DNA from: Caldilineales bacterium
GTDB lineage: Bacteria; Chloroflexota; Anaerolineae; J102
Assembly: GCA_024102915.1 (NCBI GenBank)
Contig: JAGFJG010000090.1
Span: 1 to 64,000, forward strand
Direction of reading: 5' to 3'
Length of the DNA: 64,000 nt
Each line of letters begins with the position of its first letter. Within the stretch, counting starts at the first letter, position 1. The translations under genes were made by a program, and so were the position numbers. Under the pieces are notes generated by a model. That model was not told where the DNA came from and did not search any database. It worked only from the letters and a program-made list of their open reading frames with translations. Below are positions 45,335 to 52,413 of this stretch, piece by piece.

Positions 45335-46858
45335 TCAGTCCGAAATGATCGGCAAGGTGACCACGAATCTCGATCCATTGCCCACTTCCGAAGTCACCGA
45401 GATTTCGCCCTGGCGCTGCGTGACGATCTCTTTGACCAGGGCAAGCCCCAGACCGCTTCCGTTCCCATCCCTGGCCTTGTCGACGCGATAGAAGCGGTCG
45501 AAGATCAGCGGCAAATCCGCCGGGGGGATGCCGATGCCTGTATCGGCCACCACGATTTCGATCTGGCCCTGACCTGCCGATGCAGAAAGGTTTACCTCCC
45601 CGCCCGGCCTCGTGTATTTGATGGCATTATCCAATAGATTGCGTACCAGCAATTCACAGTCGCTGGCATCCAGCGCCACCGGCGGCAGGCCGGAGGGGAT
45701 GTAGATGTTCAACGTAACCTGGGCGTGGTCGGCCAGCGGGGCCATGGTGCTGGCCGTGCGAGCCAGACAGTCCGAAGGAGAGGCCAGCGTGGCGGAAGCG
45801 GCGGGGGCGGACTGCATACGATTGAGGTCGAGCAATTGCCTCAGAAGTTGGCTGAGACGAGCGGTCTCGTCGCCGATCTCGGCCAGATAGCGCTGTACGT
45901 GGGCGCAGTCGTTCAAATCGACGCTCTGCAAAAGCTCGGCTCGCAACTGGATGGCGGTCAGGGGACTGCGCAACTCATGCGAGGCGTTGGCGACAAAGGT
46001 CCGCTCTTTGGCCAGCAACCGGCTGATTTGTTCAGCCATATGGTCGAACGCATTCGCCAGGATGCCCAGTTCGTCCTTGCGTTCCAGGTCGAGCCGCGTG
46101 CCCAGATCGCCATCGGCCAACTGATTGGCGGCAATGGTGAGCGCGTGAACTGGTCGTGTGATCTGCCGCCCGATGAGAATTGAGGCGATTACTGACAAGA
46201 CAGCAAGCAGCAAGCCGCTGCTGATCAACAGCACCCATGTGTTCCGAATCTGATCCTGGATGGTCGACATGGGGACGGATAATTGCACCAGGCCTCTGGG
46301 CGTCTCGGAATTGCCGACCGGCGCGGCCACGAAAATGCGTTCCTCTTCCGACCATTCATCGAACCGCACATGATATTGTTCCTGACCTTGCAGCGCAGCC
46401 ACAATTTCGGGGTGGCGGTCTTCGGTATGAATTGGCACGTCGGCATCCGAGGAATAGCGCACAAATAGCGAAGGATCGAGGATTGTGACACGTGCCGCCG
46501 TCTGGTCGGCGTAGGCGTCAACCAGGGCTTTGAAATCGCGATCGCCGATGGGCGAATAGACGGGAATGGGGCGAAGCTCATGATCATCTTCATCTTCGCC
46601 ATCTTCCTCGATTTCGATAGCGCCGCCGTGTTCCCGCTCATAAGCCAGTTGCGTGGACAGCGGCTCCACCATCCCGTTCGCCACGATCATCGCCTGGATC
46701 TCCAGCCTGTGCTCGGCTTCCTCCACCACCCCGGCCTGCAGGCGATAACCCGACCATAGCACCAGCCCGCCCAGGGCGACGATGATCACCGCCAGATTGA
46801 CAATCACCAGGCGCAGAGCCAGGCTGCGCCGCGGGTCAAGGCGTCGAAATAAGCTCAT
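45335..46858 (-). CDS. Sensor histidine kinase
   Basis: Membrane histidine kinase of 507 residues. Membrane segments at about 16-36 and 208-229 flank a 170-residue outside sensor domain with a striking acidic patch (IEIEEDGEDEDDHEL, about 81-95). HAMP follows (230-283), then the H box with His294 (ASHELRSPLTAIQ), the N box (LLDNAIKY), the G1 box (VVADTGIGIPPADLPLIFDRFYR) and the G2 box (GSGLGLALV). It should phosphorylate the response regulator whose gene overlaps its start by 23 nt. It is the last gene of a six-gene minus-strand operon with ApbE and a heme membrane protein. Confidence 0.93.
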   Translation of the reverse strand: MSLFRRLDPRRSLALRLVIVNLAVIIVALGGLVLWSGYRLQAGVVEEAEHRLEIQAMIVANGMVEPLSTQLAYEREHGGAIEIEEDGEDEDDHELRPIPVYSPIGDRDFKALVDAYADQTAARVTILDPSLFVRYSSDADVPIHTEDRHPEIVAALQGQEQYHVRFDEWSEEERIFVAAPVGNSETPRGLVQLSVPMSTIQDQIRNTWVLLISSGLLLAVLSVIASILIGRQITRPVHALTIAANQLADGDLGTRLDLERKDELGILANAFDHMAEQISRLLAKERTFVANASHELRSPLTAIQLRAELLQSVDLNDCAHVQRYLAEIGDETARLSQLLRQLLDLNRMQSAPAASATLASPSDCLARTASTMAPLADHAQVTLNIYIPSGLPPVALDASDCELLVRNLLDNAIKYTRPGGEVNLSASAGQGQIEIVVADTGIGIPPADLPLIFDRFYRVDKARDGNGSGLGLALVKEIVTQRQGEISVTSEVGNGSRFVVTLPIISD

Positions 46859-47552
46859 CGGCCGCCACGAAACGATAGCCGTAGCCGCGCACGGTCAGGA
46901 TCAGTTGGGGATTGGAGGGATCGGATTCCAACTTCTCGCGCAGCCAGCGGATATGGACATCGAGCGTGCGCGGCCCCCCAATCCAATCCTCGCCCCAGAC
47001 GACATCGAGCAGTTGTTGGCGATGGACGGCATTGCCGGCGCGCTGCATCAACGCTTCCAACAGGTTGAATTCCTTTTCCGTCAGATCGACCGCCTGTCCC
47101 TGGCGACGCACCAGGTGCGCGTCGATGTCGAGGCGAATGCCGCCGATATCGATTTGGTTCGGCGGGGTCATGGCCGTGTGCTGCACCCGGCGCAGATTGG
47201 CGCGGACGCGCGCCACCAGTTCGCGAAAGCTGAACGGTTTGACGATGTAATCATCAGCCCCGGTCTCCAGCCCCATCACCCGATCCATTTCCTGATCCCG
47301 GGCGGTGACCATGATCACCGGCGCCGAGGATTCCTGGCGGATGTGGCGCAAAAGCTGGAAGCCATCGATGCCGGGCAGCATCACGTCCAGCAAAATCAGG
47401 TCGGGCTGTTGCGAGCGGGCCAGGGCCAGGCCCTCGTGCCCATTGGCGGCGCGCCACACCTCGAAGCCTTCATTCTGCAGCCCGAAAATCAGCGGGTCTG
47501 CGATCATGGCGTCATCTTCAACCAACAATATCTTACTCTGTATCTGGCTCAT
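46836..47552 (-). CDS. OmpR/PhoB-family response regulator
   Basis: DNA-binding regulator of 238 residues. The receiver domain has acidic residues in LLVEDDAM, phospho-acceptor Asp56 in LILLDVMLPG, Thr in VTARD and Lys105 in DYIVKPFSF. The C-terminal winged helix is of OmpR type (VDLTEKEFNLLEALMQRAGNAVHRQQLLDVVWG, RTLDVHIRWLREKLE, VRGYGYRF). It overlaps the kinase gene downstream and the heme membrane protein gene upstream (ATGA). The 11-bp-period CTTAAC repeats at 50236-50263 are its most likely target. Confidence 0.94.
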   Translation of the reverse strand: MSQIQSKILLVEDDAMIADPLIFGLQNEGFEVWRAANGHEGLALARSQQPDLILLDVMLPGIDGFQLLRHIRQESSAPVIMVTARDQEMDRVMGLETGADDYIVKPFSFRELVARVRANLRRVQHTAMTPPNQIDIGGIRLDIDAHLVRRQGQAVDLTEKEFNLLEALMQRAGNAVHRQQLLDVVWGEDWIGGPRTLDVHIRWLREKLESDPSNPQLILTVRGYGYRFVAADELISTP

Positions 47553-48274
47553 GGATTGGACTTGGCCGTAATGAAAATCCGGTAAAACGTCAGGAATAGG
47601 ATACTGCCAATGGCGGCCCCATACAAAAGCCAGAGCTGGTTGGAGTCGGTTCCGGCGGCGATGCTATGCACAGTGACCAGCACAAACATGAGAAAGCTGG
47701 CGAAGTGGATTAATCGCCAGGCGCGGCGGCCAATGCGATTGCGGACGTAAAAACTGAAGCTGACAATCAGGCCGAGATAGAGGGCGATCTGGCCCCAGGC
47801 GGTGGCGATGGGTTTGTAACCGCTAGCGGCAAATGGAACCAGAATCTGCGGCAAAGTATAGCCGATGTAATGGTCGCCCATCAGGATGACGGCGTGGAAT
47901 CCGGCGAAAGCCAGAGCCACCAGGCTGGCGAATTGGTGCAGGTCGAAAGCGGCAGGGCCGCCCGGCCACAGGCGGGCCAGCCGGTTGGTGATGCTCAAAC
48001 CCAGAACCATGCTCAACCACAGCAGGACATAACCGATCACGCCCGAAGCGCGGGAGAGATGCCAGGGCGCCTGGGCGGCGGCGATGTCGGCGGCCAGCAG
48101 CGGCGTGCTGCGCGGCAAAAACCAGAGCGCCACCGCAGCGCCGAGAATGGCTCCGGCCAGCAAGAGGACGGCTGCCTGCCAGGGCAGGGCGTGTTGCGCC
48201 TGTTGTTCAGGCGTAACGAGGGTGGTAGGCGACAACGTGCGTTGCCAGAGTGTGGGTTTGGTAGGTGCTGCCAT
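47549..48274 (-). CDS. Ferric-reductase-like / MsrQ-type heme membrane protein
   Basis: Membrane protein of 241 residues with about six segments. Two helices each carry a His pair at heme-ligand spacing: HQFASLVALAFAGFH and HFASFLMFVLVTVH. This is the ferric-reductase-like/YedZ-MsrQ transmembrane pattern that passes electrons from quinol or flavin across the membrane. MsrQ is usually coupled to the MsrP periplasmic molybdoenzyme, which is not nearby; the neighbour is ApbE instead. The start overlaps the apbE end by 68 nt, so a later start is possible. Confidence 0.82.
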   Translation of the reverse strand: MAAPTKPTLWQRTLSPTTLVTPEQQAQHALPWQAAVLLLAGAILGAAVALWFLPRSTPLLAADIAAAQAPWHLSRASGVIGYVLLWLSMVLGLSITNRLARLWPGGPAAFDLHQFASLVALAFAGFHAVILMGDHYIGYTLPQILVPFAASGYKPIATAWGQIALYLGLIVSFSFYVRNRIGRRAWRLIHFASFLMFVLVTVHSIAAGTDSNQLWLLYGAAIGSILFLTFYRIFITAKSNP

Positions 48275-49217
48275 CGTTCAATACGAGTAAAATGGGGAGT
48301 TCGGTGTGTGTGGAAAGGTAAGTTTGTACGCCGCCGGTGTCGAGAATGGTGAGCGTGAGGGCCAGCACATCGGCCTCGGTCGCGGTGGCGGCGATGACCG
48401 TCGAATTCAGAATGTTGGTGGGGGCGGGCGTTCCCAGCCTGGGGTCGATCAGGTGGTGTTGCTGTCGGCCTCGAACCCGCCATTTGCGGTGATCGGTGCC
48501 GGACGTCGCCAGTCCGCACTGGCTGAGTTGCAGCAATGCCACATCCTGTTCCGGGGTCAGAGGATCGGCGATGGCGACGAGCCAACCGGCGGTGGCGGGC
48601 GGCGGCGCGCCAATGGCCAGATCGCCCCCGGCATCGATGAGCGCCGGCCCAAACGCCGAGAGTTTCTCCAGCGCTTTGTCGGCGGCCCAACCTTTGGCGA
48701 TTCCCCCAAGGTCGAGTTGCAACCCGTCCGGGATCAGGATCGTGCGGGCATCCGTATCGAGTTCGATGCGATGGTAATCGGGCAGCGATGACGGCAACGT
48801 TTTCTCTTGGTCGGAATCGCCGAGTTGCTCGAAGGATCGATCATAACCTGCGGCGATCAGTGTTTGGCCGACGGTGGGATCGAAGAGACCCGCCGTGCTG
48901 ACAGCCGCGTCCACGGCTGCCAGCGTCACTTCCCACAGGATGTCACCGGCATGGTAAGCGTTTCCGGTCGCCCGATTCAGGCGGCTGAGGTCGCTATCGG
49001 CACGAAAACGGCTGAGTTCGGCTTCCACTTGTTGCATCCATAATTCAACGCCGCGCAGGGCCTCTGGCGCTTGGGGGTGATCGCTGTAGACCGTAGCCAT
49101 CATCTCGCAGTTCATGGCTCGAAAGCGATGCGTGTGCTGACCGGGATGCGTCGCCATCTCGTTAGCGACTGGAGCGGGAGCGGGCAAGCGGTCGGGCGGG
49201 AACCTGTTGGGAGACAT
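48207..49217 (-). CDS. apbE: FAD:protein FMN transferase (ApbE)
   Basis: Flavin transferase of 336 residues that attaches FMN covalently to Thr or Ser of exported redox proteins, using FAD and magnesium. Seen: MNCEMMATVYS, ELSRFRADSDLSRLN, LFDPTVG, LDLGGIAKGWAADKAL, DAGGDLAIGA, HLIDPRLGTPAPTNI and ATATEADVLALTLTILDTGG. No signal peptide or lipobox is evident. No protein in this operon shows an obvious acceptor motif (D-x-x-S/T-G-A-T), so the flavinylated partner must be elsewhere. It sits between a small membrane protein and the heme membrane protein in the six-gene operon. Confidence 0.9.
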   Translation of the reverse strand: MSPNRFPPDRLPAPAPVANEMATHPGQHTHRFRAMNCEMMATVYSDHPQAPEALRGVELWMQQVEAELSRFRADSDLSRLNRATGNAYHAGDILWEVTLAAVDAAVSTAGLFDPTVGQTLIAAGYDRSFEQLGDSDQEKTLPSSLPDYHRIELDTDARTILIPDGLQLDLGGIAKGWAADKALEKLSAFGPALIDAGGDLAIGAPPPATAGWLVAIADPLTPEQDVALLQLSQCGLATSGTDHRKWRVRGRQQHHLIDPRLGTPAPTNILNSTVIAATATEADVLALTLTILDTGGVQTYLSTHTELPILLVLNDGSTYQTHTLATHVVAYHPRYA

Positions 49218-49539
49218 TGGGGATGGGATTCAATTGCAGAGGTGCGGGTATCGGATCGAGTGAGATTACTGTGCTTGCGCTATCAACTGGCGGGATCACC
49301 GTGGGCAGAGGCGCGAGTTGCACCTGTATGCCGGATGCGGCTGTGGGAATTGAAGTCGTCGCGGGTTGTGCGACGGCCACATTCGTGGGATTGGGCTGCT
49401 GCGCTGAGATTTCGCTAAGGGCGATTGCGCCCCATCCGCCCAGCGTTCCCGTCAGGGCGCAGGCCACGATCAAGGCCCGGCCCGCTACGGGTTTGGACGG
49501 CTTGCGCCGCTTACTCGCGGGTTTTCTGGGTTCAGTCAT
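49162..49539 (-). CDS. Small membrane-anchored linker protein, function unknown
   Basis: Protein of 125 residues: a basic cytoplasmic start (RKPASKRRKPSKP), one membrane segment (about 23-42), then a Pro/Thr/Val/Gln-rich outside part without Cys or recognisable domain. It overlaps the stop of the upstream coiled-coil gene by 8 nt (ATGACTGA) and the start of apbE by 56 nt, so it is embedded in the operon. Longer starts at 49572 or 49599 are possible. I do not recognise a family. Confidence 0.6.
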   Translation of the reverse strand: MTEPRKPASKRRKPSKPVAGRALIVACALTGTLGGWGAIALSEISAQQPNPTNVAVAQPATTSIPTAASGIQVQLAPLPTVIPPVDSASTVISLDPIPAPLQLNPIPNVSQQVPARPLARSRSSR

Positions 49540-50038
49540 CGTCGTGCGATTCTGAGTGTTCGGCTTCTTCATGGTCGTTTTCTTGATGATCGTCGTCACC
49601 CTGCCAGAAAGCCTGATCAGCGGACGAAGGTTGGCTTTGCGCCTGCATCGATTGCACCTGCAATGCCTGCAGGAATTGTCCTACGGATTCAAGTTGCATT
49701 CGATAGGCCTGGTCGCGTTGCAGCAACTCCTGATTCTGCGTCTTGAGCTGGCTGATTTCATCGTACGCTTGTTGAAGCTGGCCGTTCGCCTGTTCGATCT
49801 GACTGCGATAGGCGGCGTCGCGGGCCTGTAGCGTTTCCAACAACTGCGTTTCCGCCGGGGTGGGCGACGGCAATACCAACGTCTCAGTCTGAGCAGCCAT
49901 CTCGGCTGCGGCGACGTTATCGGAATCACTTGCCAGGGCTGTGTCCAGGCTGGGATAGGCCAGAAGAACTGCTGCGACAGCAATGATCACAAAAGCTGTG
50001 AGGGCGGCGGATGCGAAAAGGGCGGTGCGTTGTGTCAT
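49532..50038 (-). CDS. Exported coiled-coil protein with His/Asp/Glu-rich tail
   Basis: First gene of the six-gene operon, 168 residues. An N-terminal membrane anchor or signal (about 8-28) is followed by a coiled coil (about 62-130; LLETLQARDAAYRSQIEQANGQLQQAYDEI and on) and an extremely acidic and His-rich end (DDDHQENDHEEAEHSESHDDD with 5 His in the last 21 residues). The tail could bind divalent metal. It may be a metal or pH sensor element or an assembly factor for the redox proteins downstream; this is inference. No known family is recognised. Confidence 0.68.
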   Translation of the reverse strand: MTQRTALFASAALTAFVIIAVAAVLLAYPSLDTALASDSDNVAAAEMAAQTETLVLPSPTPAETQLLETLQARDAAYRSQIEQANGQLQQAYDEISQLKTQNQELLQRDQAYRMQLESVGQFLQALQVQSMQAQSQPSSADQAFWQGDDDHQENDHEEAEHSESHDDD

Positions 50039-50169
50039 GATTGAGAATCCTCCAATGGCGGATGATGTTTGGGTGGTGAGCCGGCTGGGCTGCGAGGTGC
50101 AAGCGGCGGCGTTTGTATGAATTCTGCCTGAAAACCAGACGTCGCTGGTTAAATCTCGGTCATGGTTAT

Positions 50170-50185
50170 GTTAAGCGTAGTTTAA
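50170..50185 (-). promoter_or_regulatory. Minus-strand CTTAAC-type boxes facing the ApbE operon
   Basis: GTTAAG (50170-50175) and GTTTAA (50180-50185) are read on the minus strand as CTTAAC and TTAAAC at a 10-bp period. They match the motif found three times near the cytochrome promoter and suggest autoregulation of the operon. Confidence 0.45.
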
Positions 50186-50235
50186 ATGACAGGTCGGGCG
50201 GATGAGGTCGGTAAGGCTGCCAGGATGAGTATTTG

Positions 50236-50263
50236 CTTAACATGCGCTTAACGTCCACTTAAC
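50236..50263 (+). promoter_or_regulatory. Three direct CTTAAC repeats at 11-bp period (PhoB/OmpR-type boxes)
   Basis: CTTAAC occurs at 50236-50241, 50247-50252 and 50258-50263, with exact 11-bp spacing. This is the geometry of direct-repeat boxes bound by OmpR-family regulators. The last box is next to the -35 position of the promoter for the cytochrome gene. Confidence 0.7.
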
Positions 50264-50284
50264 CAACAACCCGGTTTCCGCTGC

Positions 50285-50290
50285 TAGACT
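50285..50290 (+). promoter_or_regulatory. Extended -10 of the multiheme cytochrome promoter
   Basis: TAGACT at 50285-50290 is preceded by TGC. The -35 position has no consensus hexamer and is partly taken by the third CTTAAC box, as in activator-dependent promoters. Confidence 0.5.
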
Positions 50291-50397
50291 GACCACTTAT
50301 TGATGAAAGGCCGCCGATCCCCACACGAATATCCGGTTCATCCCCAGGCCGAAATGTTGTTCGCCATCGGGATGAACCCCCAAAACGAGGAGGTTCT

Positions 50398-52413
50398 ATG
50401 CAGAAAAAGACAAGTCCAAGACGTAAGATCCGACCCTGGCTTTTCCTGGCGCCCCTGCTGCTGGTCATTTCCGGCCTGCTGGTATGGGGCAGCCGGGAAA
50501 CGCCGGTGGCGGCCAAGAGCAACTACCTCACGGCCTTCCGCAATGCCTATCCCGCAATTGCCGGAACACAGTTGGACAGTTGCAGCGTGTGCCACACTGA
50601 TTCGATCCCGACGCTCAATCCCTACGGCGCTGACTATCGCAATCACGGACACAGCTTCCCGGCCATCGCCGCGCTCGATTCTGACGGCGACGGCTTCGAC
50701 AATCTGACCGAGATCAACGCCCTTACCTTCCCCGGCAACGCCGCCAGCCAGCCCGGCGCGCAAGCCACGGCCACGCCGACATCCTCGGCTCCGACCCCGA
50801 ACAGCCCGACGCCCACGGCTACAGCCACGACAACTGCACCGGGCAATTCTGGCGGTGAATACGAGATCATCGGCTGGAATGATCTGGGCATGCACTGCAT
50901 GAACGAATCATTCGCCAATGCCGTGGTGCTGCCGCCCTTCAACACACTCTGGGCGCAGGTCATTCGCAAAGGGTCGCAACCCGAAATCGTCACCGATGGG
51001 GTCGTGATCGAGTACAGCTTTCAGAACAACACCACCAGCGCCGACAAGGTCAATTTCTGGACCTACGCCAAGCAACTCTTCGGCGTCGATCTGCCGCCCA
51101 ATGTGGGGCTCACCGGCGTCGGCTTGAGCGGGAATCTGCACGCGGCGGGCGATCACTTTGTGGTGGAAGGCGTGCCGCTGACGCCCTATGAGGACGGCAA
51201 GCCGCACATTCCGCAGCCTTACCAGCTTGCCGATCTCGTCGCTCGCGATGCTGCGACCGGCGAGGTACTGGCCTCGACCACCTTCGTCGCCCCGGTTTCG
51301 ACCGAAATGAACTGCGACGATTGTCATGGCGATGGCAAGATGGAAGACATCGCCACCGGCAATGTGGAGACGAATATCCTGGCCTTGCACGACAAAGAGG
51401 AAGGCACGAATCTGATGGGACAGCGGCCAGTGCTCTGCGCCAATTGCCATGGCTCGAATGCCCTGGGCATGTCCGGCAACCCTGAATTGCCCAACCTCTC
51501 GCGGGCAATCCACAGCAAGCACGCGGATGAGGGCGACGATGGTGATGACGATGGCGCGGCTGATGTCGAGGCTGCGGGAATGAATGCGAGCGCAGACGCG
51601 GCTCCCACCTGTTACCAGTGCCATCCCGGTCCTGAAACCGCCTGTTTGCGCGGCGTCATGGCCGAAGCCGGACTGACCTGCGAATCCTGCCATGGATCAC
51701 TGCAAGATGTAGCCAACCCAGCCCGCCAGCCCTGGGTCGATCTGCCCCGTTGCGGCGATTGTCACGACCCCCAATATGCCGAGAACCCTGGAAAACTGTT
51801 CCGCCAATCGGTCGGGCATGGCGGCCTCTATTGCGAAGCCTGCCACGGCAGCACGCATGCCATCCTGCCCAGCACGCAGCCGCGCGACAACATCCAAGTG
51901 ATCCGGTTGCAGGGGTGGGCCGGCACGTTGACAGACTGCCGCGCCTGTCATGGCGACAACATCCCCGACGGCCCTGGCCCGCACGGCATGGCGAATCCGA
52001 ACCCGCAACCAAGCCCGACGGCTACGGCGATCGCCACCCAAACTCCCACTACGCAGCCCAGCCTCACCCCAACGGCCACGGCGACCGCCACCCCCACCAG
52101 ACAACCGAGTCCTACGCCTACCCGCGTATCGCCCACGGCCACACCGACTCGAACGAAAGCCGCCGCCACGGCGACCGTCACTCGTACCCCCACCAGGAAG
52201 CCCAGCCCTACGCCCACACGCGTATCGCCCACGGCCACGCCGACTCGAACGAAAGTCGCCGCTACACCGACCGTCACCCGTACCCCAACCAGAAAGCCCA
52301 GCCCTACGGCCACGCCGACTCGAAAGCGGGTGCGCCGCACAGTCACGCCCGATGTCGACGTTGATGGGATCGCACAGAACTACTACTTCCTGCCCATCAT
52401 CCGCACCAACTGA
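50398..52413 (+). CDS. Secreted eight-heme c-type cytochrome with Thr/Pro tail
   Basis: Exported protein of 671 residues with a signal or anchor (about 13-32). Eight CXXCH heme sites are present: CSVCH, CDDCH, CANCH, CYQCH, CESCH, CGDCH, CEACH and CRACH. The first lies in a small domain with a calcium-loop motif (DSDGDGFDNLTEI). A Thr/Pro linker separates it from the main part, which opens with GWNDLGMHCMNES. After the last heme comes a 130-residue Thr/Pro/Arg linker made of 32-residue repeats, then the end YYFLPIIRTN. Likely role: electron transfer at the cell surface. GAGGAGG precedes ATG. It is divergent from the ApbE/two-component operon. Confidence 0.9.
   Translation: MQKKTSPRRKIRPWLFLAPLLLVISGLLVWGSRETPVAAKSNYLTAFRNAYPAIAGTQLDSCSVCHTDSIPTLNPYGADYRNHGHSFPAIAALDSDGDGFDNLTEINALTFPGNAASQPGAQATATPTSSAPTPNSPTPTATATTTAPGNSGGEYEIIGWNDLGMHCMNESFANAVVLPPFNTLWAQVIRKGSQPEIVTDGVVIEYSFQNNTTSADKVNFWTYAKQLFGVDLPPNVGLTGVGLSGNLHAAGDHFVVEGVPLTPYEDGKPHIPQPYQLADLVARDAATGEVLASTTFVAPVSTEMNCDDCHGDGKMEDIATGNVETNILALHDKEEGTNLMGQRPVLCANCHGSNALGMSGNPELPNLSRAIHSKHADEGDDGDDDGAADVEAAGMNASADAAPTCYQCHPGPETACLRGVMAEAGLTCESCHGSLQDVANPARQPWVDLPRCGDCHDPQYAENPGKLFRQSVGHGGLYCEACHGSTHAILPSTQPRDNIQVIRLQGWAGTLTDCRACHGDNIPDGPGPHGMANPNPQPSPTATAIATQTPTTQPSLTPTATATATPTRQPSPTPTRVSPTATPTRTKAAATATVTRTPTRKPSPTPTRVSPTATPTRTKVAATPTVTRTPTRKPSPTATPTRKRVRRTVTPDVDVDGIAQNYYFLPIIRTN
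52105..52320 (+). repeat. 96-bp coding tandem repeat in the cytochrome tail
   Basis: About two and a quarter copies of a 96-bp unit encode RKPSPTPTRVSPTATPTRTK plus AAATATVTRTPT variants. The copies differ by only a few bases, suggesting recent expansion. Confidence 0.6.

Follow-up and report, generated by a model that had tools for sequence, protein, structure and literature searches.

Genes and repeat arrays at the locus

The window analyzed here is a 64,000-nucleotide stretch of a contig from a Caldilineales bacterium, whose genome assembly is 5.3 Mb in size, 97.9% complete and 6.8% contaminated. An operon on the reverse strand, with the gene order h168, h145, ApbE, FRD, RR, HK, is divergent from a cytochrome gene on the forward strand. 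The intergenic region between the h168 start (50038, reverse strand) and the cytochrome start (50398, forward strand), positions 50039-50397, contains two arrays of short direct repeats facing in opposite directions. The features of the locus are as follows.

45335..46858, reverse strand: sensor histidine kinase (HK) with HAMP, HisKA and HATPase domains
46836..47552, reverse strand: OmpR/PhoB-family response regulator (RR; PF00072 and PF00486), proposed binder of both arrays
47549..48274, reverse strand: ferric-reductase-like transmembrane protein (FRD; PF01794, E = 1e-5, 26.0 bits, just under the cut-off of 28)
48207..49217, reverse strand: ApbE-family FAD:protein FMN transferase (Pfam PF02424, E = 1e-50)
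49162..49599, reverse strand: h145, small membrane-anchored protein with a conserved C-terminal [ST]RSSR
49532..50038, reverse strand: h168, the gene that opens the operon, encoding a coiled protein with a membrane anchor and a His/Asp/Glu-rich tail
50121..50126, reverse strand: putative -10 element CAGAAT, 21 nt past the last box, a weaker match than the TAnnnT of relatives
50148..50186, reverse strand: putative operon-side operator, four boxes with an 11-bp period, kept in orthologous loci
50236..50263, forward strand: putative cytochrome-side operator, three CTTAAC boxes with an 11-bp period (from sequence reading, pattern counts and the cross-genome profile)
50285..50290, forward strand: -10 element TAGACT, preceded by TGC (extended -10), 21 nt past the last box
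50398..52413, forward strand: gene, divergent from the operon, for a c-type cytochrome that has eight CxxCH motifs

The response regulator combines a receiver domain (PF00072, 3e-30) with a winged-helix Trans_reg_C domain (PF00486, 8e-29), which places it in the OmpR/PhoB family, as a preliminary description of this DNA had proposed for the regulator of the operon. The His/Asp/Glu-rich tail of h168, HQENDHEEAEHSESHDDD, is possibly metal-binding. The h145 proteins of the window and of two related loci (L023 and L323) are without a Pfam match, and their terminal [ST]RSSR, encoded next to ApbE, could be a modification site.

On the cytochrome side, exact CTTAAC boxes occupy 50236-50241, 50247-50252 and 50258-50263, spaced by exactly 11 bp; the entire window has only four CTTAAC on the forward strand and one on the reverse strand (50170-50175). 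The extended -10 element, TGCTAGACT, spans 50282-50290, and since TAGACT begins 21 nt past the last box, that box covers about two bases of the expected -35 hexamer. The preliminary description had noticed these three repeats and their extension into the -35 position of an extended -10 promoter, and both observations hold.

On the operon side, the boxes read on the reverse strand are TTTAAA (50186-50181), CTTAAC (50175-50170), CATGAC (50164-50159) and TTTAAC (50153-50148). The inverted copies previously placed at 50170-50185 are present; that reading was incomplete, as they belong to a four-unit, 11-bp array covering 50148-50186. CAGAAT is a poor -10 element for the operon of the window, which counts against the explanation that we favor below.

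Support for the arrays and conservation in relatives

The pattern (CTTAAC N5)3, with up to three mismatches, has two matches in the 64-kb window, both in this intergenic region, and none in 100 dinucleotide shuffles. The second match is part of the four-box array, so the first reading had caught one array whole and the other by half. With a profile built from sites of other genomes only, the two window arrays receive the two highest scores in the 64 kb (37.2 and 33.1 bits over boxes 2-4), and the top five scores in the window all fall inside this intergenic region.

The same four-box array lies upstream of the same operon in eight relatives (G003, G005, G006, G007, G008, G017, G030 and G051). 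A sequence-only profile built from 11 sites and run on 61 relatives located further arrays, including at operon starts on other contigs of G015, G018 and G019. An alignment of 30 sites has the consensus CTTAACATnCnCTTAACATnnCnATnACnnnGnnTTAACCAC followed by a TAnGAT-type -10 element, and the boxes on the operon side follow the grammar YTTAAC-N5-CTTAAC-N5-nATGAC-N5-nTTAACC. TAnnnT lies exactly 21 nt past the last box in 25 of the 30 sites and at 20 nt in two more; among ten sites located from the boxes alone, with the -10 element left out of the search, eight have TAnnnT at 21 nt. The operon-side array is kept across many genomes and families of the Anaerolineae (Chloroflexota), and a profile search detects an array at E <= 1e-4 in 44 of 298 genomes of the class.

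The paired arrays are thus genuine and conserved. That AT-rich repeats simply arose by chance in a GC-rich intergenic region is a reading to which we give almost no credence: all that speaks for it is how short any one box is, and it is dismissed by the shuffles and the cross-genome profile and refuted by the conservation.

Conservation upstream of orthologous loci, which the preliminary description had put forward as a check, is found on the operon side and fails on the cytochrome side in G003 and G006, relatives in which a cytochrome-like gene is divergent and the cytochrome-side array is absent. The divergent gene in these two genomes matches the window cytochrome in its N-terminal part only. 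The relative of the window cytochrome in G009 is preceded by an array of its own, and in G017 a cytochrome relative lies directly downstream of HK.

Co-occurrence with the regulator

We gathered 80 named loci with the reductase gene and scanned them for the array. Almost all named relatives of the reductase come from Chloroflexota, the nearest being labeled Anaerolineae, Caldilineae or just Chloroflexota. Of the 11 FRD loci that have the orthologous regulator as the next gene, 9 carry an array, compared with 1 of the 54 that lack it (Fisher p = 1.7e-8); when the loci used for training are excluded, the counts are 6 of 8 and 1 of 54 (p = 3e-6). These p-values are indicative only, as the loci are kin by descent and contingency tests overstate their independence. 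One locus scored as lacking an array despite the regulator, L163, does have a degenerate one in which the 21-nt spacing is kept, and another with the regulator (L210) has no recognizable array at the locus. L187, which has an array and no adjacent regulator, comes from the same assembly (DAIDTM01) as L221, which encodes the regulator. In G260 (L315) and G255 (L326 and L327), the RR-HK unit lies apart from the ApbE-FRD unit, and an array is found at each unit. The presence of the array tracks the orthologue of the operon's regulator.

The array in L187 (4874-4954, reverse strand) heads an operon encoding a secreted protein that contains the stretch QYKNGSYTG, together with an ApbE-like protein and a large membrane protein. 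Many of the reductase loci of the Chloroflexus/Roseiflexus type (L153, L158-L162, L175, L190, L213 and others) have a different, divergent HK-RR pair, the regulator of which is about 41% identical to that of the operon; in the 80-locus scan, none of these arrays was found at the loci with this other pair.

Distinguishing the regulator from PhoB

The closest solved sequence relative of the operon's regulator is RegX3 (PDB 2oqr, E = 9e-66), and the genome encodes a second, PhoB-type regulator on another contig (C78) that is 52% identical to it. Orthologues of the C78 protein lie near pstS in several relatives. The operon's regulator and PhoB form separate clades (support 96/93), and we rejected the identification of the operon's regulator as PhoB itself, given this separation and the other PhoB in the genome. 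The PhoB equivalog model TIGR02154 gives the operon's regulator 234 bits against a cut-off of 296, a threshold that the PhoB of this genome, at 248 bits, does not reach either. The neighbors of the regulator (ApbE, FRD, HK and the cytochrome) are not the phosphate genes by which a Pho regulon is recognized.

The arrays might nonetheless be ordinary Pho boxes bound by the true PhoB, with the operon and the cytochrome being phosphate-starvation genes. Cyanobacterial SphR uses boxes of this type, CTTAAC at an 11-bp period (PMC1906773), and pstS promoters of the class, including that of this genome, carry TTAAC-type arrays with the -10 element likewise at 21 nt. The recognition helices of the two regulators are nearly identical (PRTLDVHIRWLREK versus TRTVDVHIRWLREK). 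However, the pst arrays have a different grammar, GTTAAN-N4-CTTAAY-N5-WTTAAC-N5-CTTGAR-GAC, with the first box 10 bp away and CTTGA[AG]-GAC as the last, and leave-one-out log-odds fully separate FRD-type from pst-type sites. With +24.5 bits, the cytochrome-side array falls on the side of the FRD-operon type; boxes 2-4 and the following bases alone contribute 17.1 bits in the same direction. The FRD profile does not pick up the genome's own pstS site. Most relatives have PhoB, yet the arrays occur where the paralogue is. We therefore regard control by the true PhoB as unlikely. Cross-talk is possible, since the box hexamer and the recognition helix are common to PhoB and its paralogue.

The genome's own pstS promoter (C28:40708-40745; about 6709-6746 of L063) carries the Pho-type variant of the array, with TATTCT 21 nt downstream.

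A broader reading, which we offer tentatively and hold to be somewhat less probable than its converse, is that a PhoB paralogue with a near-PhoB recognition helix took over a flavin/heme electron-transfer regulon across the Anaerolineae, and that the two regulons are separated by array grammar (box order, first spacing of 10 versus 11 bp, and a last box of TTAACC versus CTTGAR-GAC) and not by a new box sequence.

Extent of the proposed regulon

The genome of the window was scanned by pattern and profile searches. The 30-site profile at E <= 10 finds only the two window arrays, and a relaxed three-box pattern gives weak matches, fewer than in the reversed control, among which the pstS site (C28) alone is meaningful and is of the Pho type. 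Two other matches were rejected as further targets, one lying inside a long ORF (C118) and one inside a membrane-protein gene (C31, E = 0.37). The closed regulon suggested by the preliminary description therefore stands for this genome at the sensitivity of the profile and gives way to a wider one in relatives. There, arrays also precede an operon of a ferredoxin and an FAD oxidoreductase (G008 and G011), small NapC-like multiheme cytochromes (G006 and G008) and DUF5666-like proteins (G003 and G006).

In G203, back-to-back arrays (L314, contig C91, 2396-2546), perhaps of the Pho type, lie between an amidase-like gene and a gene for a 452-aa lipoprotein-like protein, which is followed by genes resembling an ABC transporter.

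Proposed mechanism

Head-to-tail boxes at 11 bp that adjoin the -35 and -10 positions have the geometry of an OmpR/PhoB-type direct-repeat operator, to which binding is predicted; this likeness had been pointed out before, and it is borne out by direct repeats that abut the -35 position. The intergenic region 50039-50397 probably holds two back-to-back operators for the operon's own PhoB-paralogue regulator, through which both the operon and the cytochrome gene would be activated. The sensor kinase would phosphorylate the response regulator, which would then bind the 11-bp repeats as head-to-tail subunits, at the four boxes facing the h168-h145-ApbE-FRD-RR-HK operon and the three CTTAAC boxes facing the eight-heme cytochrome. 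The last box ends 21 nt ahead of a -10 element and overlaps a -35 region that resembles the consensus poorly; most likely, then, the regulator stands in for -35 recognition and activates both promoters, which would be class-II activation. In this way it would autoregulate its own operon and co-express the membrane flavin/heme electron-transfer genes with the cytochrome.

The same overlap could allow a bound protein to exclude RNA polymerase, and the regulator might instead repress, blocking both promoters until released by a signal. Against such repression, the -35 of the aligned sites shows, by eye, little match to the consensus, as in activator-dependent promoters, and the -10 element keeps a constant distance of 21 nt, for which repression would have no need. 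We find repression quite improbable, and both it and control by PhoB are less likely than activation by the operon's regulator. We infer that the regulator binds, that it depends on phosphorylation, that its effect is activation and not repression, and that the signal is a redox one; judging by the target genes, the cue may be redox state or an electron acceptor. Most likely, the locus represents a PhoB-type regulon that is autoregulated and serves extracytoplasmic electron transfer.

Relation to known systems and significance

The Pho boxes of SphR in the cyanobacterium Synechocystis are built of three or more 8-bp direct repeats in tandem, with the consensus CTTAACCT and 3-bp linkers, giving an 11-bp period (PMC1906773). 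They share this period and a PhoB-family regulator with the window arrays, and differ in that they precede phosphate genes, whereas the window arrays precede genes for ApbE, a ferric-reductase-like protein and a cytochrome, and the window regulator lies in a clade apart from its own genome's PhoB. The PhoB/PhoR system and pst promoters of the class resemble the locus in hexamer type, 11-bp period, the -10 element at 21 nt and the recognition helix, and differ in regulator clade and array grammar. RegX3 of Mycobacterium tuberculosis is the nearest solved sequence relative, but SenX3-RegX3 is described in PMC7525159 as responding to phosphate starvation, and nothing found at the window locus points to a phosphate function.

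MsrQ-like flavinylation clusters, in the passages of PMC8238504 that deal with them, combine ApbE with a PF01794-type membrane protein; in the window, the ApbE match is clear and the PF01794 match stops just short of its cut-off. In contrast to the clusters described there, no flavinylated substrate domain was found in the window operon, and those passages describe no such regulator. In the collection of papers that we searched by text, neither this regulator nor this operator was the subject of any paper. The proposed regulon would be a new one, of a PhoB-type kind that is already known.

With comparative support, the locus predicts that electron transfer of the ApbE/ferric-reductase-like kind is under a two-component regulon in a phylum most of which is uncultured. 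The operator profile can be used to find more members, as with the DUF5666 proteins, the ferredoxin-flavoprotein operon and the small multiheme cytochromes. The two regulators are naturally occurring PhoB paralogues, and as a pair they lend themselves to the study of how DNA readers that are nearly identical separate their targets.
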